A stretch of 64,000 nucleotides of DNA. Source: Massilia frigida. Lineage in GTDB: Bacteria; Pseudomonadota; Gammaproteobacteria; Burkholderiales; Burkholderiaceae_D. Under the pieces are notes generated by a model, which saw only the letters and a list, made by a program, of their open reading frames with translations, made no database searches and was not told the origin of the DNA. Positions 45,142 through 62,457 of the stretch are shown in pieces. The stretch spans positions 1-64,000 of the forward strand of contig NZ_WHJG01000025.1 of the NCBI RefSeq assembly GCF_011682175.1. Direction: 5' to 3'. Each line of letters starts with the position of its first letter. Positions within the stretch are counted from its first letter, which is position 1. A program made the translations under genes and the position numbers.

Positions 45142-45225
45142 CGGTCGCTTCTTTATGGTTGTTTTTAGAGACAGCGCCGCCGGAAGGTGTCTCCACACCC
45201 GTTTCCCCGGCGGCGCGACCAGCTG

Positions 45226-46806: not shown

Positions 46807-46826
46807 TTGCTGTTCCTGATTCGGGA

Positions 46827-47738
46827 TTATTGGGCGCCCTGGGCGGTGATCAGCTTCTCCAGCATCGCGTCTTCTTCAGCCGTCATGTCGGTCAGCGGAG
46901 CGCGTACGGGACCAGCCGAATGGCCGACCAGGCGCGCGCCGGCCTTGACGATGCTCACTGCGTAGCCGGCCTTGCGGTTGCGGATTTCGAGGTAAGGCAG
47001 GAAGAACTGGTCCAACAGGCGGCTGGTGGTCGCGTGGTCGTCGGCGGCAATCGCGTGGTAGAAGTCCATCGCCATTTTCGGCATGAAGTTAAATACCGCC
47101 GACGAGTACACCGGGGTACCCAGTGCCTTGTAGGCGGCGGCGTAAACTTCCGCAGTCGGCAGGCCGCCCAGGTAGCTGAAGCGGTCGCCCATGCGGCGCC
47201 AGATTTGCACCATCAGTTCGATGTCGCCGATGCCGTCCTTGAAGCCGATCAGGTTAGGGCAGCGTGCGGCCAGCTTTTCGAGCGAGTCGGCGGTCAGGCG
47301 GCACTGGCCGCGGTTGTAGACGACGACGCCGAATTTGACCGATGCGCACACCGCTTCGACGTGGGCGATCAGGCCATCCTGGCTCGCTTCGGTCAGGTAG
47401 TGCGGCAGCAGCAGGATGCCGTGGGCACCCAAGCGCTCGGCTTCCTGGGCCAGGGTGATCGCGGTACGGGTCGGGCCGCCGGCGCCGGCCAGGATCGGCA
47501 CTTTGCCACGGCAGGTATCGACCGCGGTGCGGATCACGTCCGAGTATTCGCTTGGGGTCAGGGAAAAGAACTCACCGGTGCCGCCGGCCGCGAACAGGGC
47601 GCTGGCGCCGTACGGAGCGAGCCATTCGAGGCGCTCGGTGTAGGTGCGTGCGTTGAAATTGCCCTGGTCGTCGAAGTCGGTCAGTGGAAACGACAGCAGG
47701 CCGGACGACAGGATGTGTTTGAGTTCTTGCGGATTCAT
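46827..47738 (-). CDS. kdgD: 5-dehydro-4-deoxyglucarate dehydratase
   Basis: The 303-aa TIM-barrel lyase of the DHDPS/NAL superfamily has Schiff-base Lys in [11 protein letters not shown] (about 165), catalytic Tyr in [11 protein letters not shown], and [14 protein letters not shown] near the start. It dehydrates and decarboxylates 5-keto-4-deoxyglucarate to 2,5-dioxopentanoate. GGAG precedes the ATG at 47738; an upstream in-frame start lies within the operator region. It is the first structural gene of the aldarate operon and carries a candidate operator shared with the regulator gene. Confidence 0.93.
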
Positions 47739-47780
47739 GAGGGCTCCAGGGATAGGCGGGTTGCTTGGCGTTAGTGATAC

Positions 47781-47795
47781 GTCATCGTACAACTA
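47781..47795 (-). promoter_or_regulatory. Candidate GntR-regulator operator before kdgD
   Basis: On the minus strand TAGTTGTACGATGAC lies 43 nt before the kdgD start. Its first 11 bases are identical to an element just before the GntR/FCD regulator gene. The core TTGTACGA fits the T-x-G-T-x-x-A-C-x-A-like sites of FadR-subfamily regulators. Confidence 0.6.
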
Positions 47796-47914
47796 GTCTT
47801 TGACATAAGCAAGCACAACGTTCAGGCGGTTTGGGCGCGGGTCACGGCGCTGTGGGTGGAGTTCGGGAAGGTGCGAAACAGGGAAGGCGAAACGGGAGGG
47901 AAACGAGAACAGCG

Positions 47915-47939
47915 CGAGCGCCGGGAAGCGCGGCGCTCG
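47915..47939. repeat. Perfect 8-bp hairpin downstream of the GntR-family gene
   Basis: CGAGCGCC (47915-47922) and GGCGCTCG (47932-47939) form a perfect stem with a 9-nt loop, 32 nt beyond the regulator's stop codon. No T-run follows, so it may be a Rho-dependent boundary or an RNA-stabilising structure. Confidence 0.4.
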
Positions 47940-47970
47940 GGTATGCGTGGCCGGTCGATGGGGCGGGCCG

Positions 47971-48726
47971 TCAGGCGCCGTTCGACTCCAGTTGCTGCTG
48001 CGCCTGGCGCAGGCGTTCGCGGCTGTTGCTCAGGTGGGTACGCATGGCGGCGCGCGCCGCTTCCGGGTCCTTGCGCAGGATCGCGTTGAAGATATCTTCG
48101 TGCTCGCGGTTGACCCGTTCCAGGTAGGCGACTGGATCGTCATGCCCCAGTTGCGGCGTGTTGACGCGCGCGCGCGGGATGATGGTGGTGCCCAGCTGGC
48201 TGAGAATGTCGACGAAATAACGGTTGCCGGTGGCTTGCGCGATCAGCAGGTGGAATTGCACATCGGCGTCAACGGCGGGGCTGCCGCGCGCTACGCTGCG
48301 CTGCATGGCACCGAGCACCTTGGCCAGTTCGGCCACCTGCGCTTCGCTGCGGCGTGCCGCTGCCAGCCAGGCCGCTTCGGCCTCCATGCTGATGCGCAGC
48401 TCCAGCATCGCCAGTACATCCAGGACCGTGACGATGCTCTCGGCATTGATCGCCAGGCCGGCGTTGCTGCGCTCGATGACGAAGGTGCCGATGCCGTGCC
48501 GGGTCTGCGCCCAGCCGGCCGCCTGCAAGTGTGAAATGGCTTCGCGCACCACGGTGCGGCTCACGCCATGCTGTTCCATGATGGCCGATTCGGTCGGCAG
48601 CTTGTCGCCGGGCTTGAGCACGCCCTGCTGGATGCTGCCCGTGATGTGCTCGACCACGCCCTGGGCGAGGGTGCGGTGTTTCTTGCGGGGTGGTGGGAGC
48701 GCTTGGGCAGAGAAGGTCGATGTCAT
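47971..48726 (-). CDS. GntR-family (FadR/FCD) transcriptional regulator
   Basis: The 251-aa repressor has an N-terminal winged helix (GVLKPGDKLPTESAIMEQHGVSRTVVREAISHLQAAGWAQTRHGIGTFVI) and a C-terminal FCD ligand-binding domain (about 105-235). Conserved metal-ligand-type histidines are visible in VQFHLLIAQATGNRYF and AMRTHLSNSRERL. Sugar-acid-derived ligands are usual for this class. It is transcribed in the same direction as, and upstream of, kdgD and the aldarate genes, so it is their likely regulator. The ATG at 48726 has only a weak ribosome-binding site; seven more codons upstream are possible. Confidence 0.91.
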   Translation of the reverse strand: MTSTFSAQALPPPRKKHRTLAQGVVEHITGSIQQGVLKPGDKLPTESAIMEQHGVSRTVVREAISHLQAAGWAQTRHGIGTFVIERSNAGLAINAESIVTVLDVLAMLELRISMEAEAAWLAAARRSEAQVAELAKVLGAMQRSVARGSPAVDADVQFHLLIAQATGNRYFVDILSQLGTTIIPRARVNTPQLGHDDPVAYLERVNREHEDIFNAILRKDPEAARAAMRTHLSNSRERLRQAQQQLESNGA

Positions 48727-48747
48727 GGATATATTATACAACCCCAT

Positions 48748-48762
48748 TAGTTGTACGACATC
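48748..48762 (+). promoter_or_regulatory. Candidate auto-operator of the GntR-family regulator
   Basis: TAGTTGTACGACATC, 22 nt before the regulator start, shares the 11-mer TAGTTGTACGA with the site before kdgD. Next to it, TACAAC (48737-48742) and GTTGTA (48750-48755) are inverted, which would place a repressor dimer over the promoter. It also lies 62 nt before the divergent YkgJ-like gene. Confidence 0.58.
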
Positions 48763-48823
48763 TTATGATTTAACGGGGTGTATACTTAGGTGACATATGA
48801 CTTACCCACAGAAATGAGATGGT

Positions 48824-49081
48824 ATGAATTGCCGTGACAATTGCGGCGCCTGCTGCACTGCCCCATCGATCACCAGTCCGATCCCCGGCATGCCGGAAGG
48901 GAAACCCGCAGGTGTGCGATGCGTGCAGCTGGGCGACGACAATCGATGTTGCCTCTTTGGCAAACCGGAACGGCCCGCGTTCTGCGGCGGCTTGCAGCCA
49001 TCCGAGGAAATGTGCGGTCCCAGCCGCGAATATGCCATCCACTGGCTCAATGCGCTCGAGCGCGCCACTGCACCTGTGTAG
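48824..49081 (+). CDS. YkgJ-family cysteine-cluster protein
   Basis: The 85-aa protein matches the small YkgJ/zinc- or iron-binding cysteine-cluster family: the N-terminal [11 protein letters not shown] is followed by [30 protein letters not shown]. Eight or more cysteines in the usual pattern suggest a metal or Fe-S site. The biochemical role of the family is unknown. A weak GAGAT lies before the ATG. It is divergent from the GntR regulator. Confidence 0.85.
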
Positions 49082-49241
49082 GCCACCCGATGTCGGCAGA
49101 CATCGTCAACAACAGGCATCTGCCCTGGCGAAAACGCCATGCCAGCCACGTCAAGGTGGGCCAACAGAATCATCTGTGCAGCGTTCGCCACCCCTTACAA
49201 AGAAGAGTTAGCTTTTAAGCATTGTTGCGCTTATGCTGCAA

Positions 49242-49259
49242 GGGCGGCGCTCGCCGCCC
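49242..49259 (+). repeat. GC hairpin in the 5' leader of a PEP-CTERM gene
   Basis: GGGCGGC (49242-49248), loop GCTC, GCCGCCC (49253-49259) form a perfect 7-bp GC stem about 28 nt before the start codon. The following sequence is pyrimidine-rich (CTCTCCCTTTA) without a clean T-run, so it may terminate upstream transcripts weakly or stabilise the leader. Confidence 0.4.
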
Positions 49260-49286
49260 CTCTCCCTTTATTGAAAGGATGTCTCC

Positions 49287-50054
49287 ATGTCTGTCCGATC
49301 CATGTCACGCCTGCCTGCGCTCGCACTGTTCGTCGCTTGCGCCACCTCGCCACTGGCCGCACAAGCCCAACTGACGCATGCCAGTGCAACGGTAACGATA
49401 TCGCAATGGCAGTTCGAGCTAGTCGACCTCGATCTGTCCGACAACATCGCGCCGGCGATCAATTTCACCGAAAAGGTCGAAGGGACCAGCAAATACGCAC
49501 TCAACCATCGCCTGCAAACAGTCGACACGCTGTCGGGCCCCGGCTATACGCATGCAAGCGGCATCGTCGGCCTCGCCACCACCCTGGCCACGTTCGACCA
49601 TTTGAGCGCGACGACGCATGGACGCGGCGGCGCCGATAACCATCACTATTTCAGCAGCCACGCCATGTATGAAATGAATTTCGATCTCACGCCCATGACC
49701 GGCATCCGTTTCTCCGCCGTGACGACTTACGACCTTACCCCAGGAGAAGATCCGGACTTCTTCAAGCTCACCCGAGGCGTAATGGAAGGCCACATGGATG
49801 ACGAACCTGGCGGTAATTACGAACACATCTTCACCGATGATGCGTATGTCGAGGAGGGCAGCCACATCGGCACCTTGTCCGGCTACATGACAACTGGCGC
49901 CACGTCACTGCAGGGCCGGCTCAACCTGCACGCCATCAGCTACGTCCTGCTCGATACCTCTCCCGTCCCGGAACCGGGGACGTATGCCATGCTGCTGGCC
50001 GGTGTCGGCGTGCTCGGTGCGGCGCGCCGGCGCGCCCGCCAGCGGCTTGGGTGA
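49287..50054 (+). CDS. PEP-CTERM sorting-domain protein
   Basis: The 255-aa exported protein has a signal peptide (about 1-27, ..SPLAAQAQ), a beta-rich body without catalytic motifs, and a C-terminal VPEPGTYAMLLAGVGVLGAARRRARQ, the PEP-CTERM motif, helix and basic tail that exosortase recognises. It is likely a surface or extracellular-matrix protein. AAGGATG precedes the start. It is the second such protein in the window and is unrelated in sequence to the first apart from the tail. Confidence 0.88.
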   Translation: MSVRSMSRLPALALFVACATSPLAAQAQLTHASATVTISQWQFELVDLDLSDNIAPAINFTEKVEGTSKYALNHRLQTVDTLSGPGYTHASGIVGLATTLATFDHLSATTHGRGGADNHHYFSSHAMYEMNFDLTPMTGIRFSAVTTYDLTPGEDPDFFKLTRGVMEGHMDDEPGGNYEHIFTDDAYVEEGSHIGTLSGYMTTGATSLQGRLNLHAISYVLLDTSPVPEPGTYAMLLAGVGVLGAARRRARQRLG

Positions 50055-50102
50055 CGGCACGCTTGCACCGGCCGGATCGCCATGCCGGCGCGACGCGGCA
50101 CG

Positions 50103-50153
50103 TGTCTAGTAAAGCCTATGAAACTATAGCGTGATTCAGGGAATCGTTTGACC
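50103..50153 (+). promoter_or_regulatory. Bipartite regulatory site before the TonB receptor gene
   Basis: TGTCTAGTAAAGCC..TGAAAC (50103-50124) is followed, after exactly 17 nt, by AATCGTTTGACC (50142-50153). The same two parts with the same 17-nt gap occur before the LacI-type gene, and a close version precedes the GH3 gene, all pointing towards their genes. TTGACC could double as a -35 box, with AATACT 18 nt downstream as a possible -10. Confidence 0.65.
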
Positions 50154-50313
50154 CTCCGATTTTTCGAATGCAATACTCAATTCAATCGATTCGCCCATCC
50201 CTGCAAGGCTGCATCGCTTGCCACAGCTGGCGGGTCACCACTGTGTTGCATATAAGCGCAAGCGGGCTCGCCAAGCCGCGCGCACATAATCCAAATGGAA
50301 ATCAGGAGACAAG

Positions 50314-51146
50314 ATGCTATTCCCAACGACACGGACTCTGATGAGTCTGGCGGTCGCCAGCGCGTTCGGCTGTGCGCTCCTGCCCGGCCAAGCGCAAACT
50401 GCCGGCAGCGCCGCCGACAATACCGCCCCCGCCAATAACGACCCGGATCAAATCCAGGAAGTCAAAGTCACCGCCACCCGCCACTCCACCTCGCTGCTGC
50501 GCACCCCGCTGGCGGTCACGGCCCTGAGCCAGGACCCGCTCACGCGCAAGGGCGCCCAGAGCCTCAGGGACCTGGCCGGCGACATCCCCAACGTCGTCAT
50601 CGAAAACACCGGCCTCGATTCGGCCGTGCAGATCACCATCCGTGGTATCACCTCGACCAACTTCACCGAAACGGGCGACCCGGCCGTCGGCTTTCACGTC
50701 GACGGCCTGTACTCGCCGCGTCCACAAGGCGCGCAGGCGCCAATGTTCGACATCGGCCAGCGGAAGTGCTGCGCGGCCCGCAAGGCACGCTGTTCGGCCG
50801 CAATTCGACCGGCGGCGACGTCAACCTCATCTCGGCCAAGCCTGACTTCAGCGGCAACTACGGCAAGGCCAACATCGAGCTTGGCAACTACAACAGGAAG
50901 CAGGCCAGCATCGTCCAGAATGTCGCCGTCAACGACATGCTGGCCCTGCGCGCCACATACATGTTAGTGCGGCGCGACGGCGACGCCAACCGGATGCGCG
51001 ACCTGAGCGAAGCGAACGCGCCCGCTTACGGCTGGATCCCGGATGGCATCCACCACGTCGACCAGCGCTTCAACAACAAGGTCGGCAAGAAGGACTACTA
51101 CACCAACCAGGACCAGTGGGCCGTGCGCGTGGGCGTGAATTACTGA
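50314..51146 (+). pseudogene. Frameshifted, truncated TonB-dependent receptor
   Basis: Codons from 50314 encode a signal peptide and the plug domain (TRHSTSLLRTPLAVTALS, GDIPNVVIENTGLDSAVQI, GFHVDGLY). Around 50760 the frame breaks: FDIGQR should lead to VEVLRGPQGTLFGRNS, but four bases (GTCG) appear missing before AAGTGCTG. The receptor continues in another frame (VLRGPQGTLFGRNSTGGDVNLIS..) to TGA at 51146. Even joined, it is only about 277 residues against 700-1000 for the family, so most of the 22-strand barrel is also gone. It would have imported mannan oligosaccharides across the outer membrane. A terminator lies 23 nt after the stop. Confidence 0.87.
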
Positions 51147-51169
51147 TCCGTTTTACCGGGGTTGCTTGG

Positions 51170-51214
51170 GCCGGTGTACCGTGGACAATCCTGCGGTGTA
51201 CCGGCTCTTTTTTT
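51170..51214 (+). terminator. Intrinsic terminator after the TonB receptor remnant
   Basis: GCCGGTGTACCG (51170-51181) pairs with CGGTGTACCGGC (51194-51205) over 12 bp including two G-U pairs, with a 12-nt loop. TCTTTTTTT (51206-51214) follows. It stops rightward transcription before the convergent esterase gene. Confidence 0.85.
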
Positions 51215-51243
51215 GTCGCCGGTGGCTGGCGGACCACGCGCGA

Positions 51244-52290
51244 TTACCAGCCGGTCAAGTCACGTAGCTGGGGAAGCAGTTCGCGCGCCATCGCGCCGTG
51301 CTGCGCTTTGGTGGGATGGGCATCGGTCGCGTCGCCCGGATAGTGGGCGGATGCCACGGCGTGCACGCGTGCGCTGCCGACGCGCCGGATGGTGTCGGCG
51401 ATATAGCTGGTCAGGGCGGCCTTGCGCTCGCCATTGAGAATCGCACCTTCGGTCAGCACCACCAGCGCATGCGGATGATTACGCAGCAGCGTGCGCAGCA
51501 AGCCAACGTAGGCATTGACATAGGCATCGCGCTCCGGAATGCCGGTGCTGAAATCGTTGGTGCCAATCGCGACGACAATCAGGCCGGGCCAGTAAGCGGC
51601 ATGGTTCCAGCGCACCCGTTGCTCTTCGTTGGCGATGGCCAGCTCGTAGAAATCGGGAAGATTGTCCTCATCGGTGCGGCCGTTCCAGCTGCGCAGCAAC
51701 CCGCGCCCGCCATGGCAGACCAGCTGAACCTGCGCACCGAGCGCCTGCGCGGCCAGCATGCCGTACGACGCGCGCGGGTTCCACCACGACGGCTTCTTCA
51801 CCTCGCCGGCAACCCGGTCGATGGCTTCGCCGCAGGAGACCGAGTCGCCGAGAACGAGCATTTTGCGCTGCGGGAGCACCGGTGCGGTGCGCAGCGTGCC
51901 GTCGGCCACGAACCGGGCCAGCGTGACGACGCCGTGCCAGCTTTCGGTACGGTGCATGATGTCGACGCGGTGCAGGCCCGCCTGGCGCTCGTCCACCAGC
52001 TTGATGGTTCGCGCCGTCGCCGACAACTTGATGATGCGTGGCGCGCCACCGTCGACGATAACTTCGAGAATGCTGCGCTCACCACTGGCCAAGGCATCGA
52101 CCGACAAGGCTTTGCCCTCGAACGACAGCGACAGCTGCACGCCGGGATAGGAGAAGCGCAGGCTGCCATCGGCCAGGGCAACGGTCCTGCCCATGCGCGC
52201 GATGCGCGGGTCGTCCGCGCGCACCACTGGTTCGGCCCGGACGCCAGCATGGGCCAGCAGCAGCGCCAGCGCCAGTGCGGTGCGATTCAT
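51244..52290 (-). CDS. SGNH-type carbohydrate esterase (CE2-like)
   Basis: The 348-aa exported protein has a signal peptide (MNRTALALALLLAHAGVRA), an N-terminal jelly-roll domain (about 25-140) and an SGNH esterase domain with MLVLGDSVSCGE (nucleophile), VVAIGTNDFS and a final DAHPTKAQH (catalytic Asp/His). This beta-sandwich plus SGNH layout is typical of CE2 acetyl-xylan/mannan esterases. It probably removes O-acetyl groups from mannan. It is the last gene of the leftward glycoside-hydrolase operon. Confidence 0.88.
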   Translation of the reverse strand: MNRTALALALLLAHAGVRAEPVVRADDPRIARMGRTVALADGSLRFSYPGVQLSLSFEGKALSVDALASGERSILEVIVDGGAPRIIKLSATARTIKLVDERQAGLHRVDIMHRTESWHGVVTLARFVADGTLRTAPVLPQRKMLVLGDSVSCGEAIDRVAGEVKKPSWWNPRASYGMLAAQALGAQVQLVCHGGRGLLRSWNGRTDEDNLPDFYELAIANEEQRVRWNHAAYWPGLIVVAIGTNDFSTGIPERDAYVNAYVGLLRTLLRNHPHALVVLTEGAILNGERKAALTSYIADTIRRVGSARVHAVASAHYPGDATDAHPTKAQHGAMARELLPQLRDLTGW

Positions 52291-52296
52291 GGCGCC

Positions 52297-53043
52297 CTAC
52301 TTCATCAATGTTTGCACGTCGGGCAGCATGACGTCGGCCCAGATGACGTAGCCCTTTTGCGTGAGGTGAAGATGATCGCCCATGATGTCGGTGCCAATGC
52401 TGCCATCAGGGCGCACGAACGACGCCCCATAATCACGGAAAACCACGTGGCGGCCATCGCCCAAGGTCGCGACCATCTTGTTGAGCGTGACGACATTCTG
52501 GCGCCGCTCGCTCGCCGCCAGTTCGCCGGTCGGCAGCACGGCATTGAGCAGGATGCGCGCGTCCGGGTACTGCTTGCGCAAGGCCGCGACCACCGCCTGG
52601 ATGCCGGAAAAAATCTGCTCCGGCTTCTCGCCGCACAGACCCAGATTGTTCACGCCGATGAGCAGCACAATCGCCTTGGGCCGGAGTTTCGCCATGCGCT
52701 TGTCCTGCAAGCGCCACAACACGTTGCCGGTATTGTCGCCGCCGATGCCGAAATTGCCCGCCTTGTAGCCGCCGAAATTCGCTTCCCGGATCGCGCGCGG
52801 CCAGCCTTCGGTAATCGAATCGCCGATGAACATCAGGTCCACATCGCCTTTGTCGGCCAGGGCCAGCTGGTCTTCATGCATGCGCTGCCAGCGCCCGATC
52901 GACATCCACGGGTATTGCTGGGTACGCGGCTTGATATTGAGGGCGCAGGTTTGCACGCCGGCCGCCATATCGAGTGGCTCGGCATGCGCGACGTGGGCAG
53001 CCAGCGTACCGGCCAGCAGGATGGATAGAATACGCAGGTTCAT
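52297..53043 (-). CDS. SGNH/GDSL esterase (PAF-acetylhydrolase-like)
   Basis: The 248-aa exported enzyme has a signal peptide (MNLRILSILLAGTLAAHVAHA) and an SGNH fold with DLMFIGDSITEGW, NFGIGGDNTGNVLWRL, VLLIGVNNLG and GDHLHLTQKGY (Asp/His pair). Family members of this kind hydrolyse acetyl groups from sugars or lipids. It sits between the alpha-galactosidase and the CE2-like gene with 6-nt gaps, so it is probably a second deacetylase for acetylated galactoglucomannan. Confidence 0.87.
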   Translation of the reverse strand: MNLRILSILLAGTLAAHVAHAEPLDMAAGVQTCALNIKPRTQQYPWMSIGRWQRMHEDQLALADKGDVDLMFIGDSITEGWPRAIREANFGGYKAGNFGIGGDNTGNVLWRLQDKRMAKLRPKAIVLLIGVNNLGLCGEKPEQIFSGIQAVVAALRKQYPDARILLNAVLPTGELAASERRQNVVTLNKMVATLGDGRHVVFRDYGASFVRPDGSIGTDIMGDHLHLTQKGYVIWADVMLPDVQTLMK

Positions 53044-53049
53044 GTTCGG

Positions 53050-54258
53050 TCACTTTGCTTTCAGGTGCAGCATCGCCACGCTGTGCGACGCGATGTTAAG
53101 GTCGAGGGATTGGCCGGTGTCGCCCGTCTTGCCGCTCCAGGCATCGGTCCAGCGGTAGGCCGTCTTGCCGGTATCGAGTTCGCGCTTGCTCAGGTCATCC
53201 CCGATCTTGTGCTTTTTCCAGTCCAACTTGTAGTTGACGGCGCCGGCGCCGCGATTGAGGATCATCAGTGCCCGGCCGTTATCGGCCAGCGGCTTGGCCC
53301 ACAGCTCCAGCGTCCCTTCGGACATGAACTTCCATGCCTGCACGCCCAGCTTGTCCTGGTTGATCGCGATAACATCCTTGTTGGTGAGGATCTTGCGGGT
53401 CGATTCCGGCATCGAACGCAGGTCGTTGCCCGAGATGAGGGGCGACGCCATCATGGCCCAGATCGAGAAGTGGGCGCGGTCTTCGTCCTCGGTCATGCCC
53501 ATGCCGACTTCCATCATGTCCATGTCGTTCCAGTGCCCGGGACCGGCGTGCTTGCGCAGGCCGGCCTGCTTGTCGAGGATGCGCAGCACGCCGAAGGCGG
53601 ACCACGAGCCGTGATTGATCTCGCAATCCCAGCACGGATAAATGTCGCCGGTGGTGCGCCACGAATGGCCGATGTCGGCGCCCCACTCCCACGGCTTGTT
53701 GTCGCCCCACTCGCACATGCTGAGCAACATGGGCCGGCCGGCGCTGCGGATCGCGTCGCGCATGGTGGTGTAGGCGGCGGCCGCGTTCAGGCCCTTGGTA
53801 TCGCACCAGTCGTACTTGACGTAATCGATGCCCCAGGCGGCGTAGGTGATCGCATCCTGGTATTCGTGACCGCGGCTGCCCGGGCGCCCGCCGCAGGTGG
53901 TGGCGCCGGCGTCCGAATAGATGCCCAGCTTGAGGCCTTTCGCATGCACGTAGTCAGCCAGCGCCTTCATCCCGGACGGAAAGCGCTCGGGATCGGGCTG
54001 GACGTTCCCGTTCTTGTCACGCTTGCCGTGCCAGCAGTCGTCGATGTTGACGTATTCGTAGCCGGCGTCCTGCATGCCGATCCTGAGCATGGCGTCGGCC
54101 GTTTCGCGGATCAGCTTTTCATCGATATTGCAGGCGAATTTGTTCCAGCTGTTCCAGCCCATTTGCGGCGTGGCCGCGAGGTTTTCGAACTTCTGTGCGG
54201 AGGCGTTCGCGCCCAGCAGCAGGGCCGCCGGGATCAGCAGCGTCGTCACGATTTTCAT
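53050..54258 (-). CDS. Alpha-galactosidase, GH27
   Basis: The 402-aa exported enzyme removes alpha-1,6-galactose side chains from galactomannan. A signal peptide (MKIVTTLLIPAALLLGANASA) precedes the TIM barrel with TPQMGWNSWNKFACNI, nucleophile Asp in YVKYDWCD (about 148), acid/base Asp in WRTTGDI (about 203), and GHWNDMDMMEVGMG. A C-terminal beta-domain follows. AGGAAG lies before the chosen ATG; an upstream in-frame start lacks a signal peptide at its beginning. The gap to the GH5 gene is 20 nt. Confidence 0.94.
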   Translation of the reverse strand: MKIVTTLLIPAALLLGANASAQKFENLAATPQMGWNSWNKFACNIDEKLIRETADAMLRIGMQDAGYEYVNIDDCWHGKRDKNGNVQPDPERFPSGMKALADYVHAKGLKLGIYSDAGATTCGGRPGSRGHEYQDAITYAAWGIDYVKYDWCDTKGLNAAAAYTTMRDAIRSAGRPMLLSMCEWGDNKPWEWGADIGHSWRTTGDIYPCWDCEINHGSWSAFGVLRILDKQAGLRKHAGPGHWNDMDMMEVGMGMTEDEDRAHFSIWAMMASPLISGNDLRSMPESTRKILTNKDVIAINQDKLGVQAWKFMSEGTLELWAKPLADNGRALMILNRGAGAVNYKLDWKKHKIGDDLSKRELDTGKTAYRWTDAWSGKTGDTGQSLDLNIASHSVAMLHLKAK

Positions 54259-54278
54259 GGATCTTCCTGTCGAAGAGT

Positions 54279-55616
54279 TCACCTCTGGAGCGAGCGCAGT
54301 TTTCCCGCATGGTCCTTGATCAGCGCCAGCGAACTGGCATCGGAGTCGAACACCGAGTACAGGCCCTGCTCTTCCTGCGGCGGATCGCCCATGAAGTCAT
54401 TGCCCTGCTTCCACCAGTAGTCGGCGTTGGCGGCACGCCCGGCGCCGCCCCAGGCCCAGAAGTTCCAGCCCGCGATCGGATCGCCACTGGCGGCGCGGCG
54501 CTGGATCAGGTTGAAAATCTCGCCATAGAAGCGGTCGCGGATTTTGGTGCCGGCCTTGATGTCGAACGAGGCGCCGTCACGATCCAGCCCGAACTCTTCC
54601 AGCACGATTGGCTTGCCGATCGTTTTTGCCATGTCGATGTGCACATTCAGGTAATCGCGGCTCTTGGCAATTGCCCCGTCCCAGCTCTCGACTGGCTTCT
54701 TGGAGTCGAACCAGCCCCAGTTTTTCGGCCACAGGTGATAAGTAAGGTAATCGATGTGTTTCGACGAATGCGAGGCCATGAACAATTTGGCATCCTGCGC
54801 CGACCCGGCCAGGCCTTCGCTGCCACTGCTCACCAGGTGGTTCCTGTCCAGTTCATGGATGTACTGCGCGGTCTCGGCGATCCATTTGGTGTAGATCGCT
54901 TTCTCCTTGTCGCTTGCCTTGCCGTTGCCCGGGCGTGGTTCGTTCGCCAGTTGCCACGACATGATCGCCGGATCGTCGCGGTACGCCTTGCCGTTGATGC
55001 TGTTGACCCGCCCGACGATCTTCCTGATGGTGCCGCGATACTCCTTCTGCGCGTCCTTGTTGGCGTAGAAGCGCGCCGTCTTGGCCATGTAGTCGTCGTA
55101 GTCCTTGGTCACGTTCGGGTCGATCGCCGGAGTACCTTCAAACCAGTTCAGGTACTGCGTCATCCCGCCCGACCACTGCCAGAAGTTGTTCAGGTAAAGC
55201 ACGACCGTCATGTCGCGCTTGCCCAGTTCATCGACCAGGAAGTCGAGGCCCGCCAGCAGGTCCTCGTCGTACTTGCCCGGACCATTGGTAGTGGCGGGCC
55301 GCACCGCGCTGGTCATCGCGGTTTTTTCGGAGACCGCCAGTACACGCACATTGTTGATCCCAAGCGCCTTCATGGTATCGAGTTCCTTGAGCAGGCGCGC
55401 ACGCTCGCCCACGCCCGACGGCGAGCCCAGATAGCCGCCGTACCAGAAATTGGCGCCGGCGATGTAATACGATTTGCCCTTGCGCGCGAAATGCGTATTT
55501 TTCACCGTCACGAATTCGCTCTTGCCCGCCGCGCTCACCGGTGCCGCCGCCGACGCCGCGCCGCTCACCAGACCCGCCATTGCCAATGCCGCACCCAACT
55601 GGTTCATCTTGATCAT
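54279..55616 (-). CDS. Endo-beta-1,4-mannanase, GH5
   Basis: The 445-aa exported glycoside hydrolase has a signal peptide (..LAMAGLVSGAASAAA) and a (beta/alpha)8 barrel with NFWYGGYLGSPSGVGERARL, acid/base Glu in WQLANEPRPG (about 223) and nucleophile Glu in VLEEFGLDRDG (about 339), the pattern of mannan endo-mannosidases (GH5 subfamily 7 by feel). It cuts the main chain of mannan, glucomannan or galactomannan. It follows the GH3 gene by 6 nt. Confidence 0.92.
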   Translation of the reverse strand: MIKMNQLGAALAMAGLVSGAASAAAPVSAAGKSEFVTVKNTHFARKGKSYYIAGANFWYGGYLGSPSGVGERARLLKELDTMKALGINNVRVLAVSEKTAMTSAVRPATTNGPGKYDEDLLAGLDFLVDELGKRDMTVVLYLNNFWQWSGGMTQYLNWFEGTPAIDPNVTKDYDDYMAKTARFYANKDAQKEYRGTIRKIVGRVNSINGKAYRDDPAIMSWQLANEPRPGNGKASDKEKAIYTKWIAETAQYIHELDRNHLVSSGSEGLAGSAQDAKLFMASHSSKHIDYLTYHLWPKNWGWFDSKKPVESWDGAIAKSRDYLNVHIDMAKTIGKPIVLEEFGLDRDGASFDIKAGTKIRDRFYGEIFNLIQRRAASGDPIAGWNFWAWGGAGRAANADYWWKQGNDFMGDPPQEEQGLYSVFDSDASSLALIKDHAGKLRSLQR

Positions 55617-55622
55617 CGCGTT

Positions 55623-57878
55623 TTACCTTTTCCCGGTTGAAGGGACGGCTTTGCCATGCAGGTCCAGCTTGCGCGCCGGGAGGTCGACCGTGATGCTGCT
55701 TTCGCCAGTGCCGCCGGCATCCTGCGCCAGCAACAATGTGTACTTCCCTTTGGCGATGCGCCAGGTCTTGGACGGGCCATGGAGGACAGCCAGCATGCGC
55801 GGCTCCACCGTGAGCGTCACCTCGCGCGTCTCGCCGGGCTGCAGGTCGACCTTGTCCCAGCCGGCCAGGCGCTTGGGCGCTTCCCAGCGCGCGCCAAGCG
55901 GGGAGACGTACAGCTGCGCCACATCCTTGCCGGCCACCTTGCCCGTATTGCTTACCTTGAAGCGCACCTGCAGCTGCCCGTCCTTGTACCCGCCCGCCAG
56001 GGCTGAATATTCAAACCGGGTGTACGACAAGCCATGCCCGAACGGGAACAGCGGCTTGTGTTTTTTGAGGTCGAACCACTTGTATCCCACCGCCGCGCCT
56101 TCGTGATAGTCGACCTTGAACTGCATCTGCGGCTTGGCAGGATCGCCATCGAGCACGGGGCGCGGCAACTGGCTGAGGGACGCCGGGAAAGTGGCCGGCA
56201 AGTGCCCGGATGGATTGACATCGCCAAACAGCACGCGCGCGATCGCTTCTCCTCCGCGCGTGCCCGGGTACCACGCTTGCAGCACGGCCGCCGTCTTGCC
56301 CAGCCACGGCATCAGCACCGGACCGCTGGTCTCCAACACGACCACGGTGCGCGGATTGGCGGCGGCAACGGCCGCAATCAGCTCATCCTGCTTGTCGGGC
56401 AGCGCCAGGTCAAGCGCGTCGTTGGCTTCGCCGATCCAGTGGGTGCCGAACACGATCACCGCGTCGGCGCTCGCGGCCAGCTGCGCTGCCCTTGCAGGAT
56501 CGGCGCCACTGTCGAAAACGACCTTGGCGCCGGGCGCCAGCGCGGCGATTTCCTTCACCGGCGCGGAAGGGTGGTACACCACCGGACCGGGCCAACTGGC
56601 CGGCAGCAAACCCTTGACCGCGCTGCCGCCGATCGGATACACCTGCGACGAACCGCCGCCGGACAGCACGCCCTGGTCGGCATAGCCGCCGATGACTGCA
56701 ATCGTTTTCACGTCCTTGCGCAAAGGGAGCACCTGGCCGTCGTTCTTGAGCAGGACCATGCTCTCTTCGGCATCTGTGCGGCTGATCAGGCCATGCGCGG
56801 CAAAGTCGATGGCGCCGTCCGGCTTGACCGGATGGTCCACCACGCCCTTGTCGAACATCGCGTACAAAATACGGTAGACCATATTATCGAAGCGCGACTG
56901 CGCCACGGATCCGGTCTTGACCGCTTCTTCCAGCGCGCCCGCAAAGTAGGGCGACTTGTCGAATTCGGAGCCGGACTGCTGGTCCAGCCCATTGTTGGCC
57001 GATGCCACGGTGCTGTGCACCGCGCCCCAGTCGGACATCACATAGCCCTTGAAGCCCCAGTCCTGCTTGAGCACTTCGTTGAGCAGCCACGCGTTCTCGC
57101 ATGCATAGGGACCGTTGACGCGGTTGTAGGCGCACATCACAGAACCGGGGTCGCCCTGTTCGATCACCAGCTGCATGGCCAGCAGGTCGCTGGTGCGCGC
57201 CGCCACATCGCCGATGCGCGCGTCAAGTTCGTTGCGGCCGGTTTCCTGGTTGTTCAGCGCATAGTGCTTGACGGTCGAGATCAGGTGGTTGGACTGGATG
57301 CCCTTGACCGCCTGCCCCACCATGATCCCGGACAGCAGCGGGTCTTCGCCGGCATATTCGAAATTGCGGCCGTTGCGCGGATCGCGCATCAGGTTCACGC
57401 CGCCGGCCAGCATCACGTTAAAGCCCGAGGCGCGCGCCTCGGCACCGATCATCGCGCCGCCCTGGTAGGCCAGCTTGGGGTTCCAGGTGGCCGCCGTGGC
57501 AAGGCCAGATGGCAGCGAGGTGCGCTCGCGCGGATTGGCGCTGGCCTGCGAGGCCACGCCAAGGCCGGCGTCAGTCTCGAACAGCTCCGGCAGGCCAAGG
57601 CGTGCCACGCCGGGAATGTAGCCGGCCGACGACGGCAGGGCGGCCGCGATCTTGATGGTTTTCTTGGGTGCGAAGTCCGACCCGAAGTAGCCGTACACCC
57701 ATTGCAGCTTTTCTTCCTGCGTCATCTCCTTGAGCACCAGCGTGGCGCGCTGGCCGGCGGAGAGGGCGCGGTTCATCCAGGGCATGGGCGCCTCGGCCGC
57801 GCCGGCAATGAGCGGCAGGGCGGCCGCGATGGCGACGGCGAGGGTGTGTTTGATCAGGGTGGTCGTGCGGGTGGTCAT
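55623..57878 (-). CDS. GH3 family beta-glycosidase
   Basis: The 751-aa exported enzyme has a signal peptide (..LPLIAGAAEA), an N-terminal TIM barrel with nucleophile Asp in GYVMSDWGAVH (about 281), an (alpha/beta)6 sandwich, and a fibronectin-III-like C-terminal domain. The substrate-handling KHYALNNQETGRNELDARI is conserved. It is a beta-glucosidase or beta-mannosidase that trims oligosaccharides from mannan or glucomannan. It is the first gene of the leftward operon and is divergent from the LacI regulator. ATG at 57878 has no rival. Confidence 0.9.
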   Translation of the reverse strand: MTTRTTTLIKHTLAVAIAAALPLIAGAAEAPMPWMNRALSAGQRATLVLKEMTQEEKLQWVYGYFGSDFAPKKTIKIAAALPSSAGYIPGVARLGLPELFETDAGLGVASQASANPRERTSLPSGLATAATWNPKLAYQGGAMIGAEARASGFNVMLAGGVNLMRDPRNGRNFEYAGEDPLLSGIMVGQAVKGIQSNHLISTVKHYALNNQETGRNELDARIGDVAARTSDLLAMQLVIEQGDPGSVMCAYNRVNGPYACENAWLLNEVLKQDWGFKGYVMSDWGAVHSTVASANNGLDQQSGSEFDKSPYFAGALEEAVKTGSVAQSRFDNMVYRILYAMFDKGVVDHPVKPDGAIDFAAHGLISRTDAEESMVLLKNDGQVLPLRKDVKTIAVIGGYADQGVLSGGGSSQVYPIGGSAVKGLLPASWPGPVVYHPSAPVKEIAALAPGAKVVFDSGADPARAAQLAASADAVIVFGTHWIGEANDALDLALPDKQDELIAAVAAANPRTVVVLETSGPVLMPWLGKTAAVLQAWYPGTRGGEAIARVLFGDVNPSGHLPATFPASLSQLPRPVLDGDPAKPQMQFKVDYHEGAAVGYKWFDLKKHKPLFPFGHGLSYTRFEYSALAGGYKDGQLQVRFKVSNTGKVAGKDVAQLYVSPLGARWEAPKRLAGWDKVDLQPGETREVTLTVEPRMLAVLHGPSKTWRIAKGKYTLLLAQDAGGTGESSITVDLPARKLDLHGKAVPSTGKR

Positions 57879-57975
57879 CGTGCCTGTCTCCTCTTTGTAT
57901 TTACCCGCTCGGCGCCCGGAAAGGTCGCCGGCCGGTTTATATGGATGAGGTGAGTGTGCATGCGGACGGTCGGCC

Positions 57976-58028
57976 GGTCAAACAGAAGGTGGCGCTTTCG
58001 ATCATGTTTAGCCATGATCACTAAACAC
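57976..58028 (-). promoter_or_regulatory. Bipartite regulatory site before the GH3 operon
   Basis: Read on the minus strand, TGTTTAG-N9-CTAAAC (58006-58027) is followed after 18 nt by a 12-mer ending GTTTGACC (57976-57987). It mirrors the sites before the LacI gene and the TonB receptor gene. The same area also has a perfect 7-bp dyad, GATCATG and CATGATC (58000-58006 and 58013-58019). Confidence 0.6.
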
Positions 58029-58100
58029 GCGGGCGGCCGCTGGCAGGGCGCTAGCCCGGGGCGGCGCGCTTGAGCGGCTTCGCAACAGTCTGCGCTGCCC

Positions 58101-58152
58101 TGTTTAGTAAAACCCGGCTAAACTGTTTGCAAACCGGACCAATCGTTTGACC
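58101..58152 (+). promoter_or_regulatory. Bipartite regulatory site before the LacI-type gene
   Basis: TGTTTAGTAAAACCCGGCTAAAC (58101-58123) contains inverted GTTTAG and CTAAAC. After 17 nt AATCGTTTGACC (58141-58152) follows. Between them lies a perfect 10-bp palindrome GTTTGCAAAC (58125-58134). Apart from the palindrome the arrangement equals that before the TonB receptor gene. It is a strong candidate for binding by the adjacent regulator. Confidence 0.66.
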
Positions 58153-58166
58153 ATGGGCTCATCGAT

Positions 58167-59279
58167 ATGCAAGACTCTCAGCATGAAAAGGCATCTGCCA
58201 CTGGAGAAGCTTGTGATCCATCCGACAGCGCGTCCGCGCCCCCCGCTGGTCCCGTTCCGATGAGCGCCGCCAGCCCATCGAACGTCACCATCCGCGACAT
58301 CGCCAAGTTTGCCGGCGTCTCGGCGGGGACGATTTCGCGCGCGCTCAAGAACGAGCCGGGACTGACCGAAACCACGCGCCAGATGGTGCTGTCGGCCGCC
58401 CATGAACTGGGCTACGATTTTGCCAACCTGCGGCGCAAGCGCATGCGGCGCCTGACCTTTTTGCTGCACCGCCAGCACAACACGGCCGCCAGCAGTCCGT
58501 TTTATTCGCCGGTGCTGCACGGGGCCGAGGAAGCCTGCCGCAAGCAGGGCATCGTCCTCTCGTTCATGGCGGTCGGTCCGGCCGATGGCGTGACCGAGCA
58601 GTTGCGCATGCATGCGCCGGACGCGATCGTGTGCGCCGGCTTTTTCGAACCCGAGCTGCTGGGCGCCCTGCGCGCGAGCGGCAAGCCGCTGGTCCTGATC
58701 GACATGAAGCTGCGCGGTTACAGCTCGGTCAACCCCGACAATTTCATGGGCGGCTACCTGGCCACCAAACACCTGATCGGCCTCGGACGCACGCGCATCG
58801 GCATGATCTCGGGTTCCCTCGGCCACTACAGCGTGCGTGAACGAAACAAGGGCTACCGCCAGGCCCTGTTCGAGTCGGGCATGCTGGCCGACCCGCGCCT
58901 GGAAGCGAGCCTGCCGGAAGGCGTCGACCTCGAAACCGGGGCCTGCGAAGCGATGCAGTCGCTGCTGGCCCTGCCCAATCCACCGGACGCGGTGTTCTGC
59001 TACAACGACAGCGCCGCCCTGGTGGCGATGCGCTGCTGCCTGGCGGCCGGCCTGACGGTGCCGCACGACGTATCGATCGTCGGCTTTGACGACATCTCCA
59101 GCGCTGTGCTCGGGCACCGGCCCCTGACCACCCTGCGCATCGACAAAAAAGCGCTCGGCGCGATGGGCGTCGAGCTGCTGCTGCGCGACCAGCAGGAAGA
59201 ACCTGTCGAACAAGTCGCCCCGGTGGAACTGATTGTGCGCGCCAGCACCGTGTGCGACGACTTCGTGCCGCACAAATAG
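58167..59279 (+). CDS. LacI-family regulator of the mannan locus
   Basis: The 370-aa protein has a LacI helix-turn-helix (NVTIRDIAKFAGVSAGTISRALKN) and a periplasmic-binding-protein-like effector domain with TFLLHRQHNTAASSPFYSPV, VLIDMKLRGYSSVNPDN and VGFDDISSAVLGHRPLTTLRI. Before the helix-turn-helix there is a low-complexity stretch of about 31 residues, so the true start may be the ATG at 58260 (MSAASPSN..). It is divergent from the GH3 operon and upstream of the isomerase and kinase genes, so it probably represses all of them until a mannan-derived sugar binds. Confidence 0.9.
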   Translation: MQDSQHEKASATGEACDPSDSASAPPAGPVPMSAASPSNVTIRDIAKFAGVSAGTISRALKNEPGLTETTRQMVLSAAHELGYDFANLRRKRMRRLTFLLHRQHNTAASSPFYSPVLHGAEEACRKQGIVLSFMAVGPADGVTEQLRMHAPDAIVCAGFFEPELLGALRASGKPLVLIDMKLRGYSSVNPDNFMGGYLATKHLIGLGRTRIGMISGSLGHYSVRERNKGYRQALFESGMLADPRLEASLPEGVDLETGACEAMQSLLALPNPPDAVFCYNDSAALVAMRCCLAAGLTVPHDVSIVGFDDISSAVLGHRPLTTLRIDKKALGAMGVELLLRDQQEEPVEQVAPVELIVRASTVCDDFVPHK

Positions 59280-59380
59280 AGCGAGCTTCCTTCACCGACT
59301 GACCAAGCTGTGTGCACGCGTGGTCTCCCGGCCCGCGTCCGTACGCTATTAACACCCTTTTTTGACAACGAGACTTGACG

Positions 59381-60589
59381 ATGGCCCCCGATTTTCATTC
59401 GCGCGACACCCTGCTTGACCACATTCGCCACACCAAACGCTTTTACGATCCGCGCTGCGTCGATCCGAGCGGCGGCTTCTATCACTTCTACAAGGACGAC
59501 GGCACCGTCTACGACGCGCACACGCGCCATCTGGTAAGCAGCACACGCTTCATCTTCAATTACGCGATGGCGTACCGCGAGTTTGGCGATCCGGCCGACG
59601 AGATGCGTCTTTTACACGGGCTGGACTTCCTGCGCGCCGCGCACCGCAATCCGCTCACCGGCGGCTATTGCTGGCAACTGCACTGGGCCGATGGCAAGGC
59701 CGAGGTCACGGATGCGACTAATCATTGCTACGGCCTGGCCTTCGTGTTGCTGGCATATTCGCACGCGCTGATGGCCGGCGTGGAAGAGGCGCGCCTGCAT
59801 ATCGAAGAAACCTTCGCCCTGATGGAGCGCCGCTTCTGGGAGCCGCAGCACGGCCTGTACGCCGACGAAGCGAGCGCCGACTGGTCGCAACTGTCGGCCT
59901 ACCGCGGCCAGAACGCCAATATGCACGCCTGCGAAGCCTTGCTCAGCGCTTTTGAAGCGACCGGCGAGAACGCCTACCTGCGCCGCGCCGAAACGCTGGC
60001 CTACAACGTCACCATGCGCCAGGCCGCGTTGTGCGACAACACCGTGTGGGAGCACTATCACGTCGACTGGTCGGTCGACCATGACTACAACCGTCACGAC
60101 AGCACCAATATCTTCCGCCCCTGGGGCTTCCAGCCCGGCCACCTGACCGAGTGGAGCAAGCTGCTGCTGATCCTGGAGCGCCACAAGGCCCACCTGCTGG
60201 ACGGAGCCCACTGGCTGCTGCCGCGCGCCTCCGCCCTGTTCCTGCAGGCGATGGACAGGGCCTGGGATGCGCAGCACGGCGGCATCTTCTACGGCTTCGC
60301 GCCGGACGGCAGCATTTGCGACGGCCACAAATACTTCTGGGTGCAGGCCGAAAGCCTGGCCGCGGCCGCGCTGCTGGGCGCGCGCACGGGCGAGGCGGTG
60401 TACTGGGACTGGTACCAGCGCATCTGGGAATACAGCTGGACGCACTTCGTCGACCACCAGCATGGCGCCTGGTACCGCATTCTCAGCCCGGCCAACGCCA
60501 AGCTGACCGACCAGAAAAGCCCGGCCGGCAAGGTCGACTATCACACCATGGGCGCCTGCTACGAAGTGCTCAATGTACTGAAGGACTGA
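59381..60589 (+). CDS. AGE-family epimerase/isomerase (mannose isomerase type)
   Basis: The 402-aa cytoplasmic (alpha/alpha)6-barrel enzyme belongs to the N-acylglucosamine 2-epimerase superfamily (RRFYDPRCVDPSGGFYH-like start, RHLVSSTRFIFNYAMAY, NANMHACEALLSAFEAT, WGFQPGHLTEW, HKYFWVQAESLAAA). Members isomerise mannose to fructose or epimerise beta-1,4-linked disaccharides. In this locus mannose-to-fructose or mannobiose epimerisation is most likely. The conserved histidines in QNANMHACEA, FQPGHLTEW and VDYHTMGACYE could be the catalytic pair. ATG at 59381 is preferred over an upstream TTG. The kinase gene follows after 1 nt. Confidence 0.88.
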   Translation: MAPDFHSRDTLLDHIRHTKRFYDPRCVDPSGGFYHFYKDDGTVYDAHTRHLVSSTRFIFNYAMAYREFGDPADEMRLLHGLDFLRAAHRNPLTGGYCWQLHWADGKAEVTDATNHCYGLAFVLLAYSHALMAGVEEARLHIEETFALMERRFWEPQHGLYADEASADWSQLSAYRGQNANMHACEALLSAFEATGENAYLRRAETLAYNVTMRQAALCDNTVWEHYHVDWSVDHDYNRHDSTNIFRPWGFQPGHLTEWSKLLLILERHKAHLLDGAHWLLPRASALFLQAMDRAWDAQHGGIFYGFAPDGSICDGHKYFWVQAESLAAAALLGARTGEAVYWDWYQRIWEYSWTHFVDHQHGAWYRILSPANAKLTDQKSPAGKVDYHTMGACYEVLNVLKD

Positions 60590-60590
60590 C

Positions 60591-61505
60591 ATGAACGCTC
60601 CGATCTTTCCCGCGTTCGTGGCCGCCGGCGAAGCGCTGACCGACATGATCGCCGATCCCGGCCAGCAGCGCTGGAGCAGCCAGGTGGGCGGCTCGACCTG
60701 GAACGTGGCGCGCGCCATGGCGCGCCTGGGCGTGCCGAGCGCCTTCGCCGGCGCTGTCAGCTGCGACGTGTTCGGCGACCAGTTGTGGGACGCCAGCGTG
60801 GCGGCCGGGCTGGATGTGCGCTTCGTGCAGCGCGAGGCGCGCTCGCCGCTGCTGGCGATCGTCTACCGGACCGACCCGCCCAGCTATTTTTTCGTGGGCG
60901 ACGACAGCGCCGACCTGCACTTCGACGCGGCGCGCCTGCCGGACGGCTGGCGCGCGCACTGCAAGTGGGCGCACTTCGGCGGCATCAGCCTGGCGCGCGA
61001 GCCGCTCGCCGGCAAGCTGGTGGCGCTGGCAGCGTCCCTCAAGGCCGATGGCGCCAAGATCAGCTACGACCCTAACTTCCGCGCGCTGATGGACCAGCGC
61101 TACGACGCCACCTTGCAGCGCATGACGGCGCTGGCCGATGTGATCAAGGTGTCCGATGAGGACCTGGCCGGGCTGTTTCGCAGCACCGACCTGGAGAATG
61201 CGTTTGCCACCCTGCGCGGCTGGAACCCGGGCGCCACTTACCTGTACACGCGCGGCGCGCAAGGCGCTTCGCTGCACATCGGCGACGAAGCATGGGATGC
61301 TGCCCCACCGCGTATTACCGTCGTCGACAGCGTCGGCGCGGGCGACGCCAGCATTGCGGCGCTGGCCTGGAGCTTCATGCACGAACCGCAGCGCGCGCCG
61401 CTCGATCACCTGCGTTTCGCGGTGGCCGCCGGCGCGGCAGCCTGCCTGTCGGCGGGCGCGGCGCCGCCAGCACTGCAAACGGTCGAAGGTTTGTTGCAGC
61501 ACTAA
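60591..61505 (+). CDS. PfkB-family carbohydrate kinase (fructokinase-like)
   Basis: The 304-aa ribokinase-fold enzyme has GGSTWNVARAMARLGVPSAFAG near the N-terminus and the C-terminal anion-hole/catalytic motif VDSVGAGDASIAAL with catalytic Asp (about 251). It transfers phosphate from ATP to a sugar, by context fructose from mannose isomerase. It starts 1 nt after the isomerase stop, so the two are translated together. Exact sugar specificity cannot be read from the motif. Confidence 0.9.
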   Translation: MNAPIFPAFVAAGEALTDMIADPGQQRWSSQVGGSTWNVARAMARLGVPSAFAGAVSCDVFGDQLWDASVAAGLDVRFVQREARSPLLAIVYRTDPPSYFFVGDDSADLHFDAARLPDGWRAHCKWAHFGGISLAREPLAGKLVALAASLKADGAKISYDPNFRALMDQRYDATLQRMTALADVIKVSDEDLAGLFRSTDLENAFATLRGWNPGATYLYTRGAQGASLHIGDEAWDAAPPRITVVDSVGAGDASIAALAWSFMHEPQRAPLDHLRFAVAAGAAACLSAGAAPPALQTVEGLLQH

Positions 61506-61563
61506 AGAGCGCCGCCGCCGGCCGCGTTACAATGCATGACCGGTTCCCGAGAAAGCACCGCCC

Positions 61564-62325: not shown

Positions 62326-62457
62326 TCCATCCCCGTCACGAAAAACAGCCCCGCATGTGCGGCTGATCAGAAGCCGGGGGCGTGCTCGTGGTAAGCTTCG
62401 ACCCCGCACCGTGCCGTCATCCGGTCCGACTTCCCCGTTAACAATACAAACTGCTTC

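Follow-up and report, generated by a model that had tools for sequence, protein, structure and literature searches.

In Massilia frigida, three transcription units of a locus that we read, from its enzymes, as serving galactoglucomannan use are each preceded by the same composite motif. This motif consists of an imperfect inverted repeat, GTTTAG-N9/10-CTAAAC, followed at a near-fixed distance by a second block that begins a promoter. The window analyzed here is the stretch of 64,000 nucleotides (nt) at positions 1 to 64,000 of contig NZ_WHJG01000025.1 (RefSeq assembly GCF_011682175.1). Comparison of sequences identifies the motif as a real, conserved promoter module that is linked to a LacI-type regulator. 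Motif, promoter geometry, conservation, co-occurrence with a LacI orthologue, and a small regulon were all obtained by computation. Each copy would constitute one promoter unit, with an operator GTTTAG-N9/10-CTAAAC at approximately –70, then TTGACC, 17 to 18 nt, and a weak –10 element. The LacI-type protein of the locus would read the operator and so control lacI itself, the glycosidase operon transcribed divergently from it, a receptor unit (a remnant in this genome), and a GH9 glycosidase gene elsewhere. Most likely, it would do so as a class-I-type activator in contact with RNA polymerase, with a mannan-derived sugar as its switch. We hold this reading as a whole to be on balance correct, if only just.

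Motif copies and promoters in the window

A sequence-only reading of the window had placed three copies of the motif, each oriented toward its own gene, and all three were located. The first, GTCTAG-N9-TGAAAC (50104–50124, plus strand), precedes the remnant of a TonB-dependent receptor gene; the second, GTTTAG-N9-CTAAAC (58006–58026, minus strand), precedes an operon led by a GH3 gene; and the third, GTTTAG-N10-CTAAAC (58102–58123, plus strand), precedes lacI. The second and third copies emerged from pattern and unit searches, and the first was recovered in its own genome with a sequence model, R1, that was trained on unit copies from the window and relatives and whose 45 training rows include this copy itself. 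The TTGACC hexamers of the three copies are located at 50148–50153, 57981–57976 (minus strand), and 58147–58152, respectively. The inverted half-sites GTTTAG/CTAAAC support the earlier view of the first part as an operator. Two details of that description had to be amended: the 17-nt gap said to be identical in the TonB and lacI copies is the same only in length, and the right half CTAAAC attributed to every copy is TGAAAC in the TonB copy.

The block GTTTGACC on its own proves little, in that it occurs three times in the window and at least three times also in 11 of 100 shuffled sequences. The operator, and the operator followed by TTGAC, were each found three times in the window, compared with no occurrence in 150 simulated sequences of 64 kb (9.6 Mb) generated by a first-order Markov process with the dinucleotide make-up of the window. 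In the whole genome (7.79 Mb), the pattern GTTTASTN{7,11}YTAAAC matched three places, two in the window and one on contig C111, versus one for the reversed control. Model R1 gave E values of 1.4e-12, 1.7e-11, and 3.6e-8 for the window copies, the last of these for the TonB copy, and of 0.42 for the C111 place, with values for the window and relatives being partly a matter of construction because R1 was trained on those copies. With 150 of 1514 first-look candidates scored, no R1 match up to an E value of 10 was apparent beyond these four places. Patterns and model thus agree on a single further place, and the motif is rare in the genome rather than common outside glycan loci, as the sequence-only reading had allowed that it might be.

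The conserved block extends beyond the second part of the motif, through a –10 element, in all three copies (AATGCAATACT, TATGCAAGACT, CATGCACACTC), a feature that had been overlooked. Ahead of the receptor remnant, a sigma-70-type promoter (50148–50177, plus strand) comprises the –35 box TTGACC (50148–50153), 18 nt, and the TG-extended –10 element AATACT (50172–50177). The promoter of the GH3 operon (57953–57981, minus strand) has TTGACC at 57981–57976, 17 nt, and a weak –10 element, CACACT (57958–57953), and that of lacI (58147–58176, plus strand) has TTGACC at 58147–58152, 18 nt, and a weak, TG-extended –10 element, AAGACT (58171–58176). Given that a –10 element is constantly present 17 to 18 nt further on, GTTTGACC is read as a –35 box belonging to a promoter of the sigma-70 type whose –10 element, at that distance downstream, is weak; this was one of two functions originally suggested for it. 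The other, a separate activator site, was ruled out by the constant –10 partner and by paralogous promoters, which keep TTGA[AC] mostly without the preceding GTTT. A promoter scan called TTGACC-18-AATACT at 50148–50177, before the receptor remnant, and returned nothing above the threshold of the tool for 57850–58300; an Rfam search of 49000–62000 yielded 0 matches. Counted from the inferred transcription starts, the center of the operator lies at approximately –70 in all three copies.

Conservation and spacing in relatives

We collected 80 named loci by means of the LacI protein, with an orthologue set of 55 loci (L027–L081) being considered together with the window; the relatives with 94 to 96% LacI identity are Massilia species. 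This set plus the window contained 104 units at up to two mismatches, namely, 51 on the lacI side (the window copy and those of 50 loci), 42 on the GH3 side (the window copy and those of 41 loci), a further 10, and the TonB copy of the window, although conservation figures for these units are inflated because rows were chosen by the mismatch limit and by a gap of 18 to 29 nt. The unit is therefore found before orthologous genes in relatives, where the sequence-only reading had considered that it might be absent. Units were seen in loci labeled Massilia, Duganella, Rugamonas, Pseudoduganella, Undibacterium, and Paucibacter, and, loosely, Mitsuaria.

Within the preselected gap, the distance from GTTTAG to TTGAC was 45 nt in 44 of 51 lacI promoters and 44 to 46 nt in all 42 GH3-side rows. 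A scan of 80 nt downstream of the operator with no limit on the gap detected TTGA[AC] at 23 or 24 nt. This was so for 49 of the 52 sites in orthologue loci (a site was present in 48 of the 55), for 21 of the 23 in paralogous LacI loci (a site in 15 of 25), and for all 4 in further family loci (a site in 4 of 13); the background was 0.0017 per base. Two of the last four sites repeat rows of L089 and L104, given that L014 and L089, as well as L017 and L104, hold the same site; more generally, the locus and genome sets are not independent because named loci and genomes overlap. The distance between divergent operators ranged from 28 to 133 base pairs (bp) over 40 loci, with a standard deviation of 21.5, whereas the standard deviation of the operator-to-–35 distance was only 0.5 to 0.8 in rows preselected for the 18- to 29-nt gap. 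Between the –10 region and the sequence for the DNA-binding domain, the separation ranged from 48 to 147 nt across loci.

After removal of copies at least 70% alike, the spacer had a mean pairwise identity of 0.36 to 0.37. In the 45 dereplicated promoters, a gap of 9 or 10 nt separates the half-sites, and the columns at the center are not conserved; the half-sites and –35 box are kept while the spacer drifts, a contrast that arises in part from selection of rows for those very elements.

Paralogous promoters show the same geometry with TTGAC or TTGAA, the two preceding bases mostly not being GT, and recognizable sites appeared in a looser scan for 2 (L087, L102) of the 10 paralogue loci without a strict match. 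Among distant homologues, L016 and L026 have the operator and TTGAC, L013 has the operator without TTGAC, no clear unit was apparent for L019–L024 and L165–L168, and none was present for L025 and L163. By eye, we also observed an inverted-repeat-like CGCC...GGCG between the –35 and –10 elements of three paralogous lacI promoters (L094:9821, L098:9798, L105:9820), which is possibly a second operator.

Mode of control and reader of the operator

A repressor site may lie anywhere over the promoter. Class I activation, of which CRP at the lac promoter is an example, has the activator site centered near –61 or –71, ahead of a promoter with both –35 and –10 elements and in a fixed helical phase. The placement of the site in Massilia is similar; the protein family is different, and activation is predicted here from geometry. 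We infer binding by LacI, activation rather than repression, and a sugar effector, and we favor a class-I-type activator because the operator is wholly upstream of the –35 box at a near-fixed distance. Contact with RNA polymerase would demand such a distance, which matches the rigid spacing amid drifting surroundings, and both the scan and the distance figures place the site upstream of the –35 box at a fixed phase. The –10 elements of orthologues, which match TATAAT at 3 of 6 positions in 47 of 51 lacI promoters and at 4 of 6 in 38 of 42 GH3-side promoters, are weak and would fit activation; in paralogous promoters of the same geometry, 14 of 21 match at 5 of 6 positions. Site position was used to predict the mode of PckR in a survey of LacI regulons (PMC4052901). 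We further propose, tentatively and with confidence somewhat below even, that one LacI subfamily in Burkholderiales is made up of regulators dedicated to class-I-type activation of glycan loci. These would be characterized by a split operator (GTTTAS TAAA ... CTAAA), an atypical arginine-rich hinge, and contact with RNA polymerase from a constant position around –70. The gap of 9 to 10 nt between half-sites might represent the insertion of one helical turn into a compact palindrome, GTTTA-S-TAAAC.

The same regulon and the same LacI reader could instead operate by ordinary repression, released by a mannan-derived sugar, with the protein blocking transcription from –70 either by bridging to the –35 box, where GTTTGACC resembles GTTTAG, or by looping between divergent operators. 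We consider this explanation unlikely but far from negligible. It has the default of the LacI family and the precedent of the sux system in its favor; the GTTT of GTTTGACC is kept in most orthologous promoters, and the first GTTTAG precedes the start of GTTTGACC by approximately 43 nt, or four helical turns. Paralogues keep the distance, however, although the bases before their TTGA[AC] are mostly not GT, and there is no overlap between operator and promoter. As for looping, the operators are only 28 bp apart in 6 of 40 divergent regions, and operator-to-operator distances share some common helical phase, but the resultant of 0.59 over 40 loci is inflated by related species and is only 0.34 over the 12 distinct distances. 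Looping between divergent operators is not favored as the cause of the spacing.

The LacI-type protein (58260–59279, plus strand) contains a helix-turn-helix (HTH) domain (PF00356, 2.3e-11) and a periplasmic-binding-like sensor domain (PF13377, 9e-30), which place it in the LacI family. The closest NCBIfam model was that for CytR, but the score of 144.1 bits, compared with a cut-off of 436, leaves it outside the CytR family. The first in-frame ATG of the gene (58167) overlaps its –10 element. We rejected ATGCAAGACT as the start in light of a survey of 51 loci, 37 of which were classified and 14 left unclassified by regular expressions: that ATG was out of frame with the HTH in 26 of the 37, was followed by an intervening stop in 1, and was in frame in 10. 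The true start is probably the next methionine, at 58260, which gives a protein of 339 amino acids that aligns over its full length in L027–L030. In the recognition region of 80 homologues, S21, G23, T24, and S26–K30 are invariant and position 22 is variable. A canonical hinge, located between the HTH and sensor domains, carries Tyr-x-Pro and a lever leucine. The hinge of these proteins, rich in arginine and lysine, lacks proline at positions 53 to 55 in all 80. The place of the lever leucine is occupied by Arg61 in an ungapped register, which is kept in alignment with RbsR, or by Leu57 if the hinge is four residues shorter, as in alignment with PurR; a profile alignment differs by one gap. 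Replacement of the hinge leucine by arginine was consequently downgraded as a firm reading, with the PurR pairwise alignment placing the invariant Leu57 there with a four-residue deletion. An apparent tracking of HTH type by the end letter of the operator (C or A) was not clean on comparison by eye and was dropped.

Matches to LacI at an E value of 1e-80 were present in 22 of 145 genomes of the family, with an identity of at least 79% in 10, and the strict unit occurred in 10 of the 145, the same 10. These genomes belong to three genera with 22 sampled genomes in all, and the remaining 12 lack both the unit and such a LacI. The strict unit accounted for 20 sites, 19 beside lacI and 1 before GH9, compared with 2 for the reversed control, and it did not occur in any of the 135 sampled genomes that lack a LacI at 79% identity or above. 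Model R1 gave matches in the nine relatives with the strict unit and in G108, whose LacI is 69% identical and whose site precedes an MFS gene, and in 0 of 4 genomes without LacI at an E value of 1e-80. The LacI-type protein of the locus, already named in the sequence-only reading, is the likely reader of the operator, with the co-occurrence being partly built in.

An improbable alternative is that a different regulator, encoded elsewhere, reads the operator and that lacI is merely one of its targets. The operator does lack the central CG and the constant half-site spacing that are usual for LacI-family sites, and co-occurrence is to some extent expected when most sites adjoin lacI; against this stand the absence of the strict unit from the 135 genomes and the paralogous lacI genes, which carry variant sites in the same geometry. 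A scan of the locus proteins turned up no other regulator, and the next one seen is a GntR-type gene at 47971–48747. Chance, or mere shared ancestry without function, would suit the presence of just three copies in the window and of promoters that could descend from one another, but is very improbable indeed in view of the empty 9.6 Mb of simulated sequence, the retention of half-sites and –35 box in dereplicated promoters (partly by selection), and a TTGA[AC] that reappears at 23 or 24 nt when the gap is unlimited.

Several points weigh against LacI-read promoters under class-I-type activation, among them two of the comparisons made in the last section. LacI-family regulators are textbook repressors. 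The lacI-side unit was not found in 5 of the 55 orthologue loci (L069, L071, L075, L080, and L081), and in L013 and L075 an operator precedes lacI but TTGAC is not in place. The conserved spacing could stem in part from shared descent. Co-occurrence is partly built in because 19 of the 20 sites adjoin lacI, and it cannot separate reading of the operator by LacI from a locus that travels as one. Paralogous promoters may not need activation, because their –10 boxes are good. Finally, predicted hemicellulose regulators were overwhelmingly repressive in one study, as summarized in a review (PMC10766802).

Genes, regulon members, and related systems

The minus-strand operon is led in this clade by the GH3 glycosidase gene (55623–57878), which is in first position in the window and in L027–L030. 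It is followed by genes for a GH5-type mannosidase (54279–55616), near the solved structure 1uuq (Man5A) with an E value of 7.1e-169 and matched by Pfam alone only as a weak Glyco_hydro_42; an alpha-galactosidase of the Melibiase_2, GH27 type (53050–54282); a GDSL esterase (52297–53043); and a CE2 acetylxylan esterase/glucomannan deacetylase of the AxeC2 type (51244–52290), above the curated cut-off. Downstream of lacI on the plus strand are genes for an AGE-family sugar isomerase (59375–60589) and a PfkB-family sugar kinase (60591–61505), with the nearest curated families being D-mannose isomerase and fructokinase, respectively, each below its cut-off. This enzyme set agrees with the earlier assignment as a mannan locus.

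What had been called a TonB receptor gene is a frameshifted, plug-only pseudogene (50314–51146, plus strand), with a frame change near 50760 and no barrel domain found. The promoter ahead of it still appears intact. Open reading frames of 890 (L028) and 891 (L029) amino acids occupy the receptor position in relatives, the latter encoding both plug and barrel, and Massilia rubra (L027) has no long receptor frame either. A PEP-CTERM protein gene (49287–50054) lies just upstream of the remnant. An MFS permease gene is divergent from lacI in 13 of the 20 relatives displayed (L031–L038, L040, L048, L052, L060, and L075); the MFS query had no match in 45001–64000 of the window, and a different MFS gene is present at 43774–45198.

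The same site precedes the regulator gene and the catabolic operons, with few sites elsewhere, as in an autoregulated local sugar regulon. The shared regulon proposed in the sequence-only reading is supported, but it is not confined to the mannan locus. A fourth unit, on another contig (G000:C111:306578-306626; L107, L111), precedes the gene for a GH9 glycosidase with a CelD_N domain. Relatives of this enzyme at an E value of 1e-60 were found in two of nine genomes, G111 (87%) and, for the COOH-terminal part, G138; the G111 unit reads GTTTAG-N9-CTAAAC-N24-TTGACG-N17-GAGAAT, with N23 in place of N24 in the M. frigida genome. A third site lies ahead of a receptor gene in G111 and, on another contig, in G120 (plug domain); the third site of G138 precedes a decayed receptor and that of G089 a receptor recognized by sequence resemblance only, and G106 and G133 also have third sites.

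The same operator-promoter unit stands without a receptor gene downstream in five loci of Massilia (L031:2272-2462, L033:457-650, L035:2252-2443, L036:2263-2458, and L037:1018-1205). The stretches found there instead are 79 to 91% alike; three hairpins are predicted in them, and their end, which has a T run, resembles a terminator. Of 36 predicted pairs, none is changed on both sides. They are candidates for a small RNA of roughly 110 to 120 nt or for the relic of a deleted receptor unit. A further locus, L094:2876-16849, combines a LacI paralogue (approximately 59% identity) with genes for a TonB receptor, a GH2 mannosidase-like enzyme, GH92, an AGE isomerase, and an MFS protein, shows the same promoter geometry, and is perhaps a sister mannoside system.

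The near-fixed operator-promoter distance across several genera makes the predicted activator mode directly testable, and the unit can serve as a pattern with which to search for regulons in a soil family that has been little studied. A warning also arises: in these lacI genes, the first ATG may coincide with the –10 box. Our literature search revealed no account of this system among the titles listed and no match for exact phrases describing a LacI-family activator, with subscription papers being mostly outside the search.

The nearest tested system that we found is the sux CUT locus of Xanthomonas campestris, which combines a TonB receptor, an MFS sugar permease, a LacI-type regulator, and an enzyme, and in which the LacI-type SuxR represses and responds to sucrose (PMC1790865). 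Its gene content is comparable to that seen across the Massilia locus and its relatives, whereas the Massilia genes fit mannan, the geometry suggests activation, and the receptor of the window is broken. That this closest counterpart is repressed is the first of the two comparisons referred to above. In a survey of LacI-family regulons, autoregulation was recorded for 72% of members, mannose or mannoside regulators (ManR) were among the members, and operators were mostly even palindromes with a central CG and usually constant spacing, with exceptions (PMC4052901). The Massilia locus resembles those local sugar regulons in having the regulator gene beside catabolic operons and a site before the regulator's own gene; the second comparison is that its half-sites, with 9 or 10 nt between them, have no conserved center and lie at a near-fixed distance upstream of the –35 box. 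A LacI-family precedent for variable half-site spacing is CytR of gamma-proteobacteria, for which 10 to 13 bp is cited from a test by systematic evolution of ligands by exponential enrichment (SELEX); CytR, however, represses together with CRP, and the Massilia LacI is not its orthologue (PMC3454398). EbgR-like members, marked by an insertion before helix 3, have predicted operators without a central CG, a feature tied to loss of the hinge leucine (PMC2329647); the Massilia operator likewise lacks a central CG, and the hinge register of its LacI is ambiguous. A local LacI regulon is of a known kind, of which the present one, with its split operator and rigid geometry, is a variant.

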